Origin: Robiginitalea aurantiaca | GTDB taxonomy: Bacteria > Bacteroidota > Bacteroidia > Flavobacteriales > Flavobacteriaceae | Length of the DNA stretch: 64,000 nucleotides | Assembly: GCF_030380815.1 (NCBI RefSeq) | Contig: NZ_JAUDUY010000010.1 | Span: 1-64,000 of the forward strand | Direction of reading: 5' to 3' | Shown here: positions 11,440 through 39,689 of the stretch, in pieces | Position numbering within the stretch: position 1 is the stretch's first letter | Layout of the letters: every line of letters starts with the position of its first letter | Position numbers and translations under genes: made by a program | The notes under the pieces: model-generated | Database searches by the model: none | Told to the model about the DNA's origin: nothing | What the model saw: the letters and a program-made list of their open reading frames with translations, nothing else

Positions 11440-11515
11440 GATAACGAGGATAGATTTGACTGATTGCAACCTCGGAGTCCGGTAACCGGAATCCATAAAA
11501 TGCTAAAGCAGTATG
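11440..11515 (+). ncRNA. SAM-II riboswitch upstream of metK, with an inserted hairpin
   Basis: The region folds as the SAM-II (metA, RF00521) H-type pseudoknot. P1 is CGAGG (11445-11449) with CCTCG (11470-11474); the loop contains the conserved GATTTGACTGATTGC. Downstream lies the conserved AATGCTAAAG block, and loop bases ACTG (11459-11462) pair exactly with CAGT (11509-11512) to form the pseudoknot stem. An extra hairpin TCCGG/CCGGA (11478-11490) sits in the linker where typical SAM-II RNAs are short. The metK ATG is about 80 bases downstream. SAM-II is known from proteobacteria and some Bacteroidota; binding of SAM should reduce metK expression. Confidence 0.75.
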
Positions 11516-11594
11516 CTCCACCGCACAGGTGCTGGCTTTTCTACTGTTTAGTATTTCTTTTGCTTTTAGTCAGCTATCTCCAAAAATTAAGAAC

Positions 11595-12851: not shown

Positions 12852-12908
12852 GGGCTGCCGGGAATCGCTTGAGATTTTACAGTCAAAACGTTCAGTAATT
12901 TTTTGTCG

Positions 12909-13020
12909 TTATCGAGAAAGGTGTAGGGAATAGACCCGTTAAAACCTTGGCAACCCTTGATCTCATAAGATTGAGAAGGTGCTACATTCTACCTGGGAAT
13001 ACCTTTCCCGGGAAAGATAA
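12909..13020 (+). ncRNA. SAM-I riboswitch (S box) upstream of the metX-thrA fusion
   Basis: Classic SAM-I aptamer: P1 TTATC (12909-12913) with GATAA (13016-13020). Conserved core segments are AAGGTGTAGGGA, GACCC, AAAACCTTGGCAACCC, GGTGCTACATTC and the closing GGGAAAGATAA. A P3-type hairpin CTCATAAGATTGAG and a P4 hairpin CTGGGAATACCTTTCCCGG are visible. No obvious T-tract terminator follows within the 105 bases to the start codon, so the expression platform may act on translation or on an unrecognised structure. Confidence 0.93.
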
Positions 13021-13125
13021 TTTCTGGCAATGGCCCTGCCTACTCCCTTTCCTTTAGCGCTTTTATATTCATCTCCCCGGAGCAAACTTTTGGATTTGAT
13101 CCGGCTGGAACAGCGCCTGAAAAAA

Positions 13126-17865: not shown

Positions 17866-17890
17866 CAGGAGTTCATTGTCAGATTGTGGT

Positions 17891-18028
17891 GTTATTGAGA
17901 AAGGTGGAGGGATTAGACCCTGTGAAACCTTAGCAACCCTTTTACCCATTTCGGGAAAAGAAGGTGCTACGTTCTAACCTGTACTTCGAGTTTGTCATCC
18001 GACAACTTCACAAGATGGGAAAGATAAC
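17891..18028 (+). ncRNA. SAM-I riboswitch (S box) upstream of metH
   Basis: P1 GTTATT (17891-17896) pairs with GATAAC (18023-18028). The conserved core is AAGGTGGAGGGATTAGACCC, GTGAAACCTTAGCAACCC, AAGGTGCTACGTTC and GGGAAAGATAAC. A P3 hairpin (CCCATTTCGGG) and a longer P4 arm including TGTCATCCGACA are present. About 100 bases separate it from the metH ATG; no clear terminator hairpin with T-tract is seen there. Confidence 0.93.
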
Positions 18029-18130
18029 ATTTGAGTTCGCCGAACCAATCCGGTTTACGCCTTCCTTTCCAATACATCCATTACATTTTTGATTCAAAAG
18101 CCTTTAGGGCAGGGGGTATAGATTTATAGC

Positions 18131-35357: not shown

Positions 35358-35577
35358 AAAACTGGAAATCCCTCCTTCCGGAAACACAGGCTCGATGCGC
35401 TCCTTAAAGGAGGTAAAGGGGAGGATCTGTTTTCCCGATGACCTGCATTATTTCCAGCAATCGGGCATTTTTCCAGAAAAATATTCAGCATACAGAAAGA
35501 AATTTGAAATAATCCTAAAAAAAATGACAGGTCCATGGCCATTGAGAATTAATACCTACATTAGCTGCAAATCGTGA
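35337..35577 (+). pseudogene. Coding-like remnant, possibly frame-broken, upstream of the phenylalanine leader
   Basis: A plus-strand ATG at 35337 opens 34 codons (MNLKELQKTGNPSFRKHRLD onward) ending in TGA; the +1 frame then continues from the TTTTCCC run at about 35431 to 35577 with protein-like composition (DDLHYFQQSGIFPEKYSAYR). Dropping one T would join them into one frame of about 80 codons. I recognise no family. It overlaps the gldA promoter region and may simply be random. Confidence 0.2.
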
Positions 35578-35582
35578 ATTCG

Positions 35583-35654
35583 ATGAACACCACGTATTTC
35601 TGGAACGGATTTTATGCCTACTTCTTTTATTTAAGAAGTACGGGACCGCTTTAG
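35583..35654 (+). CDS. Phe/Tyr-rich leader peptide of the aromatic amino acid operon
   Basis: 23 codons from ATG to TAG. The peptide contains four Phe, four Tyr and one Trp, clustered as YFW, FY and YFFY (codons 5-7, 10-11 and 13-16). This is the hallmark of a ribosome-sensing attenuator for Phe and Tyr supply. Codons 20-22 (ACG GGA CCG) contain the antiterminator half CGGGACC (35641-35647). A ribosome stalled at the YFFY codons leaves this free; one that reaches the stop codon covers it. It precedes pheA, an aminotransferase, tyrA and DAHP synthase/chorismate mutase. Confidence 0.85.
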   Translation: MNTTYFWNGFYAYFFYLRSTGPL

Positions 35655-35706
35655 ATTACGTTTAAAGGTTGTAATGTAAGGTCCCGTTTTAACGGGATTT
35701 TTTTTT
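35641..35706 (+). promoter_or_regulatory. Attenuator of the pheA-tyrA operon: antiterminator and terminator
   Basis: Antiterminator: CGGGACC (35641-35647) pairs perfectly with GGTCCCG (35680-35686). Terminator: TCCCGT (35682-35687) pairs with ACGGGA (35692-35697), loop TTTA, followed by nine T (35698-35706). The two structures share 35682-35686, so only one can form. The pheA ATG is 19 bases after the T-tract. Confidence 0.88.
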
Positions 35707-35725: not shown

Positions 35726-36556
35726 ATGAAGCCAATTCGAGTTGCCATACAGGGAATACGCGGGTCAAATCACCATCAGGTCGCAGACGATTTTTTTGGT
35801 GGGGAGGTTGAACTCGTCGAATGTATGTCCTTCCATACCCTCACCGATACCCTCCTTGAGGGGAGGGCAGACAAGGCTGTCATGGCTATAGAAAATTCAA
35901 TAGCCGGTTCCATAATCCCAAATTACGCCCTGGTTTGTGAGAACCACCTGCACATCATTGGGGAACACTATCTGAATATTCACCATCACCTGATGGCACT
36001 TCCGGGACAGAAGGTTTCCGAAATCCGGGAAGTGCACAGCCATCCCATGGCCCTGTTGCAATGCCGTGAGTTTCTCAAAAGGCATCCGCATATACGAATG
36101 GTTGAGGATGCGGATACGGCGGAAACAGCCCGCAGGATCCACCAGAAGCATCTCAAAGGAATAGCCGCCATAGCGCCACAGATGGCGGCAGGACTCTACA
36201 GCCTGGAAATACTGGCCAGTGATATTCAAACGATTCAAAACAATGCGACCCGCTTTATTATAGTCAAACCCACCAATAAGGAATTACCACATGATCAGAT
36301 CGATAAGGCATCACTTCGCTTTGTCACCGATCACAAAAGGGGGAGTCTGGCTACCGTATTAAACGTAATGAGTGATTGCAACCTGAACCTGACCAAGATC
36401 CAGTCTTTGCCCGTCATTGAGACACCCTGGAAATATTCCTTTTTTGTGGATGTGACCTTCGAAGAATACGCTCAATTCGAGAAGGCAAAGTCCCTGATTT
36501 CAATCTTAACTGAGGATTTTCAACTCCTCGGAGCCTATAAAAATGCGCGTTTATGA
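35726..36556 (+). CDS. pheA: Prephenate dehydratase
   Basis: 276 residues. It converts prephenate to phenylpyruvate. The catalytic domain is shown by GIRGSNHHQVADDFFG, ENSIAGSIIPNYALV and the NNATRFIIV motif (T-R-F). The C-terminal ACT domain, SLRFVTDHKRGSLATVLNVM then NLNLTKIQSLPV (the NLTKIESRP-like motif), predicts feedback inhibition by phenylalanine. It lacks the chorismate mutase domain, which is instead on the DAHP synthase. It is the first structural gene after the attenuator and overlaps the next gene by 4 bases. Confidence 0.96.
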   Translation: MKPIRVAIQGIRGSNHHQVADDFFGGEVELVECMSFHTLTDTLLEGRADKAVMAIENSIAGSIIPNYALVCENHLHIIGEHYLNIHHHLMALPGQKVSEIREVHSHPMALLQCREFLKRHPHIRMVEDADTAETARRIHQKHLKGIAAIAPQMAAGLYSLEILASDIQTIQNNATRFIIVKPTNKELPHDQIDKASLRFVTDHKRGSLATVLNVMSDCNLNLTKIQSLPVIETPWKYSFFVDVTFEEYAQFEKAKSLISILTEDFQLLGAYKNARL

Positions 36557-37740
36557 TACGTACTGCAGATCGATTACAAGAAGTACATGAGTACTATTTT
36601 TCGACCAAACTCAGGGAGGTTCGAAAGCTTAAGGAAGAAGGACACCCAATTCTCAATATGGGGATAGGAAGCCCTGATCTGCCCCCTTCTGAAACGGTCC
36701 TGAGCACCTTGAGGAATTCCCTGAAGGAACCCGGAGCCCATCAGTATCAGAGTTACCAGGGACTTCCGGAGCTAAGGGAAACGATTGCAGCGTTTTATCA
36801 GAATAAGTTCGGGGTTCTGCTCGACCCCAAAACTGAAGTATTGCCTCTGATGGGCTCTAAAGAAGGTATTATGCATATCAGTATGGCCTTCCTGAATCCG
36901 GGGGATCGCGTTCTCATACCAGATCCGGGCTATCCCACCTACGCATCGGTCACCCGTCTGGTAGGAGCTGAGGCCGTTCCTTACCGGTTGGCCGAGGACA
37001 CAGGCTGGTTTCCAGATCTGGAGCAACTTGAAGCCGGGGGACTTGAAAAAGTAAAACTCATGTGGGTAAGTTACCCGCACATGCCAACAGGTGCCACTGC
37101 GACACGCCGGCAGCTCACCGATCTGGTCGCCTTTGCCCGGAGGCACAATATTCTTTTGGTCAATGACAATCCGTATAGTTTTGTTCTCAGCCGGGATCCG
37201 ATCAGTATTCTTGGAATTCCGGAAGGGGAGGGATATGTTCTTGAATTAAACTCCCTGAGCAAGACCTTTAATCTGGCCGGATGGCGGGTTGGGATGCTTC
37301 TGGGGGCTGCTCCCCTTTTGGAGGCGGTACTCAAGGTAAAAAGCAATATGGACTCGGGAATGTTTTACGGAATACAGAAAGGAGCCATTGCGGCCCTTAA
37401 AAGCGGCTCGGAGTGGTTTGATTCCCTTGATGCGGCCTACAGGGTGCGCCGGGCCGGGATGTTTCAGATCGCCGATCGCCTGGGCTGTACCTACGATCGG
37501 AGAGCGGTGGGTATGTTTGTATGGGCCCGCCTGCCTGAGGGCAGTCCGGATGCGGTCACTTTCGTGGATCAGCTGTTATATGAAAAACACCTTTTCGTAG
37601 CCCCTGGAACTATTTTTGGGGCACAGGGAGAAGGATATATCCGGTTTTCGCTCTGCGTACCACAGGAGCAAATCCGGGAAGCGCTCAGGCGGCTCGATCC
37701 CGTGCCCAGTGAGCATAACGTTGTCAAAGAAAACGAATAA
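36553..37740 (+). CDS. Class I/II PLP aminotransferase (aromatic or aspartate type)
   Basis: 395 residues. PLP lysine is in LNSLSKTFNLAGWRVG; other family features are GIGSPDLPPSETVL, YQSYQGLPELRETIAAFYQ, NPGDRVLIPDPGYPTYASV and VNDNPYSFVL. Position between prephenate dehydratase and prephenate dehydrogenase suggests the final transamination of phenylpyruvate and 4-hydroxyphenylpyruvate to Phe and Tyr. Start ATG overlaps the pheA stop; its own stop overlaps the tyrA ATG by one base. Confidence 0.9.
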   Translation: MIRTADRLQEVHEYYFSTKLREVRKLKEEGHPILNMGIGSPDLPPSETVLSTLRNSLKEPGAHQYQSYQGLPELRETIAAFYQNKFGVLLDPKTEVLPLMGSKEGIMHISMAFLNPGDRVLIPDPGYPTYASVTRLVGAEAVPYRLAEDTGWFPDLEQLEAGGLEKVKLMWVSYPHMPTGATATRRQLTDLVAFARRHNILLVNDNPYSFVLSRDPISILGIPEGEGYVLELNSLSKTFNLAGWRVGMLLGAAPLLEAVLKVKSNMDSGMFYGIQKGAIAALKSGSEWFDSLDAAYRVRRAGMFQIADRLGCTYDRRAVGMFVWARLPEGSPDAVTFVDQLLYEKHLFVAPGTIFGAQGEGYIRFSLCVPQEQIREALRRLDPVPSEHNVVKENE

Positions 37741-38600
37741 TGAAAGTAGTTATCATAGGGGTTGGGCTCATCGGAGGATCCTTTGCACGAGATCTGCGAA
37801 AGGTGTTCCCGGGAGCTCAAATAACGGGAGCAGATCACAATGAGACGCATCTGAAACGGGCTGTTGAATTGGGATTAATCGACAGACCTGCTGAAGATTT
37901 AGATCTCCGGGAAGCCGATGTGGTTTTACTCAGCATTCCCGTGAATGGATTGTTGAAACAATTATCCGAAGTCCTCGATGCCATTGGGGAGGAGACCCTG
38001 GTGATGGATGCGGGCTCCACAAAAGCTGAAATCTGCCGAAAGGTAGCCGGCCATGAGCGCAGAAGGAACTTTCTGGCATGTCACCCGATAGCAGGAACTG
38101 AATTTACGGGTCCGGAAGCGGCAATTTCCGGTCTTTTTGAGGGCAAAACCAATATCATATGTGAAGTTGAGCAAACGGCCTTCCGAATTCAGGAACGGGC
38201 ACTTGAACTCTTTGGCAAAATGGGCATGCGAATCCGATACATGAACCCTGAGGCCCACGACCGGCATATTGCTTATGTGTCACACCTTTCCCATATCAGT
38301 TCCTTTATGTTGGGCAAAACCGTCATTGAAAAGGAACGGAATGAAAGAGATATCTTTGACCTCGCAGGAAGTGGTTTTGAGAGTACAGTCAGGTTGGCCA
38401 AAAGTTCGCCGGCCATGTGGACCCCTATTTTTGAACAGAATCGAAAAAATGTTCTGGAGACCCTGGATGAATATATCGGCAATCTTCAGGGATTTCGGCA
38501 GTTGCTGGACTCCGGGGATTACAAAGGCGTCTTCAGAGAAATGGAAGAAACCAACCGGATAGGTGAAATTTTAAATGGGATTCCTACCCAAAAAAACTAA
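37740..38600 (+). CDS. tyrA: Prephenate dehydrogenase
   Basis: 286 residues. The NAD-binding motif GVGLIGGSFARDL is at the N terminus, and the catalytic region HPIAGTEFTGPEAA and DRHIAYVSHLSHISSFML (conserved His residues) is present. It oxidatively decarboxylates prephenate to 4-hydroxyphenylpyruvate. There is no ACT or chorismate mutase domain, so feedback control probably lies at transcription and at the neighbouring enzymes. Third structural gene of the operon. Confidence 0.95.
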   Translation: MKVVIIGVGLIGGSFARDLRKVFPGAQITGADHNETHLKRAVELGLIDRPAEDLDLREADVVLLSIPVNGLLKQLSEVLDAIGEETLVMDAGSTKAEICRKVAGHERRRNFLACHPIAGTEFTGPEAAISGLFEGKTNIICEVEQTAFRIQERALELFGKMGMRIRYMNPEAHDRHIAYVSHLSHISSFMLGKTVIEKERNERDIFDLAGSGFESTVRLAKSSPAMWTPIFEQNRKNVLETLDEYIGNLQGFRQLLDSGDYKGVFREMEETNRIGEILNGIPTQKN

Positions 38601-38606
38601 GATAAA

Positions 38607-39689
38607 ATGGAAAATACGATCGCTTTGCGAAAATGGTTAGACGATTTGAAGTTGGCCCACCCGTTGGTAATTGCGGGGCCCTGCAGTGCAGAAACCGAGG
38701 AGCAGGTCATGGGAATTGCCCATGCCCTTAAGGATACAGATGTTAACTACTACCGTGCAGGTATCTGGAAACCCAGAACCCGTCCGGGTAATTTTGAAGG
38801 GGTAGGTGCCATTGGATTAAAATGGTTACAACGGGTAAAAGCGGAAACAGGCCTGAAGACTGCGACCGAGGTTGCAAACAGGAACCATGTAGATCTGGCC
38901 CTTGAACACGACATAGATCTTTTATGGATCGGTGCAAGGTCTACGGTAAGTCCATTTATCGTACAGGAAATTGCGGATGCCCTAAAGGGGACAGATAAGG
39001 TGGTCCTGGTGAAAAACCCCGTAAATCCGGATCTTTCGCTCTGGCTGGGAGCTATCGAGCGACTGAGGTCTGCGAATATCAAAAAGCTCGGCGTTATTCA
39101 CAGGGGGTTTTCCACCTATGAAAAAACGAAATATCGCAATATCCCGGAGTGGCAAATCGCTATCGAATTACAATCCCGCTTCCCGGATCTCCCCCTGATC
39201 AATGACCCTTCTCATATTACCGGACAACGCGATTTGATCTTCGATGTTTCCCAGACTGCCCTCGACCTGAATTTTGATGGGTTAATGATAGAGACGCACA
39301 CCAATCCCGATAAAGCCTGGAGCGATGCCGCCCAGCAGATTACTCCGGAACGGCTCGTTCAGATCATGAGGGATTTGCGGATTCGGAAGGAGACGGACCA
39401 GGAAGCGGAATACCGGCAGAACCTGAGTAATCTCAGAGCCCAGATCGATGTGATCGACAACCAGCTCATCGACACCCTGGGCAAACGCATGAAAGTAGCC
39501 GATGCCATCGGGTCCCTGAAAAAGCAACGCAATGTCGCTGTATTACAGACCAATCGATGGAATACAATCCTGGGTAAGATGATCCTCGAAGGTCAGGAGC
39601 ACGGCCTGAGCGAAGAATTTGTGCTTAAAATGTTCAAGGCCATCCACCAGGAGTCCATCAACCATCAGGAAACCATAATTAATTCCTGA
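38607..39689 (+). CDS. aroG: Bifunctional 3-deoxy-7-phosphoheptulonate synthase / chorismate mutase type II
   Basis: 360 residues. Residues about 1-265 form a DAHP synthase (PLVIAGPCSAETEEQVMGIA, YRAGIWKPRTRPGNFEGVG, HRGFSTYEKTKYRN, DPSHITGQRDLIFD). Residues about 270-357 form an AroQ-type chorismate mutase (LRAQIDVIDNQLIDTLGKRM, KVADAIGSLKKQRNV). The fusion places the first shikimate step and the branch point step on one chain. It ends the attenuated operon, so entry and both branches to Phe and Tyr are set by the same leader. Confidence 0.95.
   Translation: MENTIALRKWLDDLKLAHPLVIAGPCSAETEEQVMGIAHALKDTDVNYYRAGIWKPRTRPGNFEGVGAIGLKWLQRVKAETGLKTATEVANRNHVDLALEHDIDLLWIGARSTVSPFIVQEIADALKGTDKVVLVKNPVNPDLSLWLGAIERLRSANIKKLGVIHRGFSTYEKTKYRNIPEWQIAIELQSRFPDLPLINDPSHITGQRDLIFDVSQTALDLNFDGLMIETHTNPDKAWSDAAQQITPERLVQIMRDLRIRKETDQEAEYRQNLSNLRAQIDVIDNQLIDTLGKRMKVADAIGSLKKQRNVAVLQTNRWNTILGKMILEGQEHGLSEEFVLKMFKAIHQESINHQETIINS

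Follow-up and report, generated by a model that had tools for sequence, protein, structure and literature searches.

In the Phe_leader family (Rfam RF01859), a Phe leader is located 5' of a Phe gene together with a terminator and an antiterminator. The tyrA-aroF genes of E. coli are controlled by the TyrR repressor. The leader ORFs of Salmonella mgtCBR answer different signals, ATP and proline, and Bacteroid-trp (RF01692) is presumably a trp-operon leader. Attenuation was reportedly treated in a comparative study by Lopatovskaya et al. in 2010, which may already list cases from Bacteroidetes; for this reason, no first discovery is claimed here.

A structured 5' element was reported to precede pheA of Flavobacterium psychrophilum and to be conserved in other Flavobacteriaceae genera, along with strong clues for leader-peptide attenuation 5' of the amino acid operons of this species (PMC9723704). 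5' UTRs with leader-like ORFs were described for B. thetaiotaomicron (PMC7366714), and Bacteroid-trp was presented as a candidate cis-regulatory RNA of Bacteroidetes (PMC2864571). Two leader ORFs in one transcript, forming tandem attenuators, were reported for Salmonella mgtCBR (PMC3641672).

The locus described here belongs to Robiginitalea aurantiaca and was found in a window of 64,000 nucleotides, which is the whole stretch of DNA that was analyzed. It resembles the F. psychrophilum element in preceding the same gene in the same bacterial family; that element was, however, described without a leader peptide, Phe/Tyr sensing, or mechanism in the account itself, of which the supplement may say more (PMC9723704). 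The locus also resembles Phe_leader in having a Phe leader, a terminator, and an antiterminator 5' of a Phe gene, but it differs in that Tyr and Phe codons are equal in number and that the operon comprises both branches plus the entry enzyme. Membership in Phe_leader was rejected, as the score was 19.9 bits against a threshold of 55. No Rfam family, T-box included, was detected at the leader at the gathering score or with E-values up to 10, and the best sub-threshold match was rimP (24.7 bits against 47). Among the papers listed in the open-licence literature, no other one was found whose title or abstract opening describes a Phe/Tyr leader of Bacteroidota.

Leader ORF, Putative Promoter, and Predicted Hairpins

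The following features were assigned to the leader region, all on the forward (+) strand.

35557–35564, +, likely −7 promoter box TACATTAG, one base off the TAnnTTTG consensus for sigma-A
35583–35654, +, leader peptide ORF MNTTYFWNGFYAYFFYLRSTGPL, 23 codons from ATG at 35583 to TAG at 35652–35654, kept in relatives
35606–35648, +, hairpin 1:2 (protector), UACUUCUU at 35619–35626 with AAGAAGUA at 35633–35640, outer CGG/CCG
35619–35630, +, control codons Y-F-F-Y (codons 13–16), predicted stall site, of which the last begins 12 nt 5' of the antiterminator strand
35640–35647, +, antiterminator strand 2, ACGGGACC, within the last leader codons, pairing with 35680–35687
35680–35687, +, strand 3, GGTCCCGT, common to antiterminator and terminator
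35678–35706, +, intrinsic terminator, stem 35678–35701 (consensus scan), T run 35698–35706

The leader peptide carries Phe at codons 6, 10, 14, and 15, Tyr at codons 5, 11, 13, and 16, and Trp at codon 7. The original prediction, which had been made from the sequence of this region, described a 23-codon leader with four Phe, four Tyr, and one Trp codon and a YFFY run, and it was exact to the base. An aromatic score of 6.2 was obtained for this ORF, against a 99.5th percentile of 6.0 and a maximum of 7.8 for the best short ORFs in 995 shuffled upstream regions, pooled over 199 loci. Since the score barely exceeds that percentile, the window's leader ORF by itself is unusual but not unique.

The −7 box occupies positions −12 to −5 (PMC9723704), and transcription is predicted to start at approximately 35569, about 14 nt 5' of the leader ATG. 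No well-spaced −33 box was seen in the window upstream of the leader, and a sigma-70 scan gave no promoter 5' of the leader on its strand. The Bacteroidetes-type promoter box in the window is only a partial match. Across loci, a loose TTG-N16-24-TAnnTT pattern was observed 5' of the leader in 120 of 199, compared with 10% of mononucleotide shuffles that were 70 nt long against the 80 nt searched in the real loci. The strict TAnnTTTG was present in 21 of 199, compared with 0.5% of shuffles.

The pairing of CGGGACC (35641–35647) with GGTCCCG (35680–35686), postulated earlier as the antiterminator, is present and extends to 8 bp (35640–35647 with 35680–35687). The letters and positions given for the terminator, TCCCGT at 35682–35687 with ACGGGA at 35692–35697 and then nine T at 35698–35706, also proved right. 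Hairpin 1:2 was absent from that earlier, sequence-only reading; its 5' arm holds the Y-F-F codons, and its 3' arm overlaps antiterminator strand 2. The 128-nt leader gave a predicted fold of −36 kcal/mol against −23.3 ± 3.2 in 200 shuffles (z = −3.99). For its parts, the values were −19.4 kcal/mol for the antiterminator stretch (z = −3.75), −11.1 kcal/mol for the terminator (z = −3.23), and −12.3 kcal/mol for hairpin 1:2 when 35605–35652 was folded alone (z = −2.46; 3 of 200 shuffles were as stable). As these three hairpins fold, the window leader shows, in such predictions, the classic order of 1:2, 2:3, and 3:4. Without ribosome or terminator, the antiterminator strand was predicted to be mostly paired, its mean chance of being unpaired being 0.23. 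A small inverted repeat, GATTAC...GTAAT, lies in the antiterminator loop (35655–35677, between stop codon and terminator), and A+T-rich dyads resembling it seem, by eye, to be present in several relatives.

Operon Downstream of the Leader

About twenty bases separate the end of the T run (35706) from the start of pheA, which is followed by three further genes.

35726–36556, +, pheA, prephenate dehydratase (PF00800, E = 4.5e-58)
36553–37740, +, class I/II aminotransferase (PF00155, E = 6e-61), a family match that leaves substrate specificity unsettled
37740–38600, +, tyrA, prephenate dehydrogenase (PF02153 and PF20463; NF006307 above cut-off)
38607–39689, +, DAHP synthase fused to type II chorismate mutase (PF00793 and PF01817)

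The pheA product probably carries an ACT domain, for which the match (E = 0.00016) fell below the ACT cut-off. An operon of pheA, tyrA, and DAHP synthase had been proposed to stand 3' of the leader, and so it does, with the addition that a chorismate mutase domain (PF01817) is fused to the DAHP synthase. Of 78 named loci, 74 have the order prephenate dehydratase, aminotransferase, TyrA, and DAHP synthase, and the remaining ones (L043, L065, L090, and L102) extend past the end of the fetched stretch.

Conservation of the Module in Related pheA Loci

Loci were fetched with the pheA protein from its own family, from named genomes, and from the phylum and class. The own family provided 30 loci and 80 further upstream stretches drawn from 178 genomes with a pheA match. 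Named genomes provided the best 80 of 126 related loci, in which the highest pheA identities belonged to two Bacteroidetes MAGs (83 and 80%) and Robiginitalea marina (78%). The term Flavobacteriaceae-type is used below because some of the named loci are MAGs classed only as Bacteroidetes or Bacteroidia. Because relatives share ancestry, the locus counts given below are not counts of independent events.

A strict detector, requiring an F/Y-dense short ORF, a terminator, and a matching antiterminator at the right distance, recognized a single module at 178 of the 186 Flavobacteriaceae-type pheA loci, among them that of the window, and none in 558 shuffled upstream regions. The module was missing by this measure in L089, L104, L155, L169, L179, L185, L186, and L188. 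A leader with at least 6 aromatic residues was present in all but three of 216 loci (L001–L218 minus L032 and L033, duplicates included). One of the three, L169, has no leader whatever 5' of pheA. In the other two (L203 and L204, of one genus), pheA stands directly 3' of an ORF that was labelled by eye as EPSP-synthase-like, so that the stretch before pheA is coding; no convincing F/Y leader was seen in the fetched stretch 5' of that ORF. L115 and L142 retain both leader and terminator, but the spacer that follows the terminator is longer, and the leader begins 466 and 381 nt, respectively, 5' of pheA.

Further comparison used 199 distinct upstream stretches, in which a leader is present by selection and identical stretches are counted once; L169, L203, and L204 are omitted, as are L001 (a duplicate) and L032 and L033 (both truncated). 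The terminator was found automatically in 196 of these 199 selected regions, and visual inspection revealed one in L016 and L191. Leaders of close relatives include MTKQYFWNGFYFYFFFKRGTGLL and those of others MTVHYTYFNNWFYFFFSKRNEALYV; they were picked for F/Y content, and part of the peptide conservation stems from this selection. Phe and Tyr both occur inside the densest eight-codon segment of all 199 leaders, with at least two of each in 197. The proposal that one leader serves both amino acids accordingly holds at the sequence level.

The nine aromatic positions of the 83 leaders that are exactly 23 codons long comprise 747 codons, of which 737 were TTN or TAN. The third base was T or C in all 737, none having drifted to Leu or stop, and selection of leaders by F/Y content does not by itself fix this base. 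The aromatic codons, whose comparison among relatives had been suggested earlier, are therefore conserved and constrained in the third base.

Covariation of the Stems and Spacing of the Control Codons

The antiterminator was found in 193 of 196 loci and beat at least 98% of 50 spacer shuffles in 145 of 196. Its six core positions were followed in 191 loci, which are the 196 minus L089, L129, and L155 (without antiterminator) and L183 and L212 (odd core). At core position 4, where none of the 191 loci has a mismatch, strands 2, 3, and 4 read G-C-G in 135, A-T-A in 30, and A-T-G in 21; at the outermost position, the antiterminator was mismatched in 35 of 191. A change in all three strands is exemplified by CGGGAC/GTCCCG/CGGGAC becoming CGAGAC/GTCTCG/CGAGAC, and the alignment shows a strand 2 change matched by a strand 3 change in L028, L059, L060, and L079. 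In 77 relatives, paired cells amounted to 92.5% for the antiterminator, with changes on both sides at 5 of 8 pairs, and to 93.5% for the terminator, with such changes at 7 of 10 pairs. Each covariation score was matched by 0 of 500 shuffles and by none of the slid controls, which scored far lower. Compensatory changes, which the original prediction had proposed to seek in relatives, were found in both stems.

For hairpin 1:2, 92.3% of cells in the 77 close relatives were standard pairs, compared with 44–64% in slid controls, and two of five covariation measures were not above shuffles (92 and 85 of 500). The folding z-score from leader to antiterminator had a median of −1.0 and lay below −1 in just 97 of 193 loci. 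Hairpin 1:2 is likely to be a step of the switch.

Counted from the first base of the last clustered aromatic codon, strand 2 begins after a median of 13 nt (interquartile range 12–14). This distance fell within 9–18 nt in 187 of 193 loci, against 23% expected under uniform placement; the remaining six were L122, L185, L188, L208, L215, and L218. Relative to the stop codon, the start of strand 2 varied between 30 nt upstream and 18 nt downstream, apart from one outlier. When strand 2 began less than 9 nt before the stop (13 loci), the control-codon distance still had a median of 13 nt, and when it began at or beyond the stop (10 loci), the median was 14.5 nt. Distant families with unlike terminator sequences mostly gave 10–17 nt, for example, 14 nt in L254 (ATGAGAACTTC with GGAGTTCTCAT); exceptions include L208 (21 nt) and L215 (22 nt, with poor pairing). 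Such a steady spacing is what the front edge of a stalled ribosome would demand. A ribosome was reported to cover up to 12 nt past the stop codon (PMC4833913), and the observed spacing fits both a stalled ribosome that frees strand 2 and a ribosome at the stop codon that covers it. The median of 13 nt, which holds although the position of the stop codon varies, reads like evolution's own gauge of where the front edge of the ribosome lies in such switches.

Proposed Mechanism and Alternative Explanations

From the comparison, that is, the parts, their conservation, the codon constraint, the three-strand covariation, and the spacing, the leader very probably belongs to the trp/phe/his type of ribosome-mediated transcription attenuators and responds jointly to the charging of tRNA-Phe and tRNA-Tyr. 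The stalling, the polymerase timing, the untranslated state, and the response to amino acids are what we infer for its operation, as follows. When either tRNA-Phe or tRNA-Tyr is poorly charged, the ribosome would halt on the Y/F cluster at 35619–35630 and break hairpin 1:2, leaving 35640–35647 free to pair with 35680–35687. The paired antiterminator would block the terminator, and polymerase would continue into the genes for the two branches, chorismate mutase, and pathway entry. When both tRNAs are plentiful, the ribosome would reach the stop codon, which lies 12 nt 3' of where strand 2 begins, and cover this strand; the terminator at 35678–35706 would then halt RNA polymerase approximately 138 nt after the predicted start. 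If the leader is not translated, hairpin 1:2 would keep the antiterminator strand and the terminator would form.

We consider it unlikely that the leader additionally senses Trp and so reads all three aromatic amino acids. Such sensing would make sense for an operon that includes the shared pathway's entry enzyme, and Trp does occur in 115 of 181 distinct leader peptides, mostly where the F/Y cluster begins or immediately ahead of it; it lies inside the densest segment, however, in only 43 of 199 leaders. The Trp of the window (codon 7) starts 39 nt 5' of the antiterminator strand, outside the 9–18 nt range, and this codon is Y, F, or N rather than Trp in 27 of 83 close leaders. Although Trp is more frequent in the leaders (2.9% of residues) than in the best short ORFs from shuffled sequence (1.6%), and its codon TGG is not AT-rich, the genome has a separate leader with a WWW run 5' of a trpE-like gene. 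That the leader senses mainly Phe, with Tyr codons present only through the resemblance of TAT/TAC to TTT/TTC, is quite unlikely. The occurrence of Tyr in every densest segment, nearly always at least twice, argues against it, as does codon 13, which is TAC or TAT in 73 of 83 close leaders, and so does an operon that encodes both the Phe and the Tyr branches. In its favor are the greater share of Phe (25.1%, against 14.8% for Tyr, of residues in the 181 distinct peptides) and two leaders with one Tyr each (L020 and L190).

The structures might also be regarded as an ordinary intergenic terminator or a stable 5' structure of pheA that lacks ribosome control, the short ORF being incidental. A terminator-like site alone is not rare, since the scan gave 26 in 16 kb against 19 expected. 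Conservation of the third base at aromatic codons, a codon-to-antiterminator spacing that is fixed across unlike leader sequences, and the covariation of all three strands make this explanation extremely improbable. The attenuator sensing Phe and Tyr together indicates a textbook coupled transcription–translation switch, in which one RNA serves the whole Phe/Tyr supply of a large bacterial group; the group was described as being without Shine-Dalgarno signals (PMC9723704). The collection of pheA leaders assembled here constitutes a ready comparative data set.

Other Families and Tandem Modules

Many, though not all, of the families sampled outside Flavobacteriaceae have the leader: an F/Y-rich one was recognized by reading in 21 of 36 further loci (L219–L254), and 15 were without; L251 was set aside, as it passes the residue count and is not dense. 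None of the four loci outside class Bacteroidia (L255–L258) had an F/Y leader. For the 48 other-family loci in L203–L254, the strict detector, which misses terminators with interrupted stems (L234 and L240, by eye), reported one module in 24, two in 1, and none in 23.

Two complete modules in series were detected strictly in 8 of 27 loci of family f5 and in 1 of 3 of family f66, against 0 of 186 Flavobacteriaceae-type loci. These tandem loci are L294 (from the same genome as L250), L299, L300, L302, L303, L304, L307, L308, and L310. In L294, each antiterminator fits its own terminator (GGAAGG/CCTTCC, then GGCAGG/CCTGCC). In family f9, represented by the best 30 of 46 matches, the strict detector gave two modules in 0 of 30, one in 26, and none in 4. 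A looser reading gave two F/Y-rich leaders in 13 of 27 loci in f5 and in 10 of 30 in f9, where the program mostly failed to recognize one of the two terminators, usually that of the second module. These tandem loci of other Bacteroidia families resemble Salmonella mgtCBR in having two leader ORFs per transcript, but differ from it in that both leaders are Phe/Tyr-rich and each has its own terminator. No description of same-input tandem attenuators was found among the matches listed in the open-licence literature. It is about as likely as not that control of the pheA-tyrA-DAHP synthase operon by a Phe+Tyr attenuator dates back to early Bacteroidia and that some families doubled it with the same input. 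If true, two same-input gates in series would make the response sharper or reduce leakage, and the tandem copies offer a testable case of such an arrangement.

Other Leaders in the Genome

The R. aurantiaca genome contains a leader with a WWW run (MKKNIHTAWWWNSKPVRL, L259) 5' of the trpE-like gene, whose score of 441 bits falls short of the family cut-off (517.7). The Bacteroid-trp model had no match in this genome, although this leader adjoins the trpE-like gene. A leader with an HHH run (MKKTRLHHHFTIGAQAW, L262) stands 5' of hisG, and each of the two is followed, by eye, by a hairpin and a T run. Given these leaders, the Phe/Tyr leader is probably one of a set of attenuators in the genome. 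At the gathering score, the only Rfam matches listed for the window were one SAM-II and two SAM-I riboswitches, which share a strand and span about 6.6 kb (11440–11516, 12906–13023, and 17889–18030).
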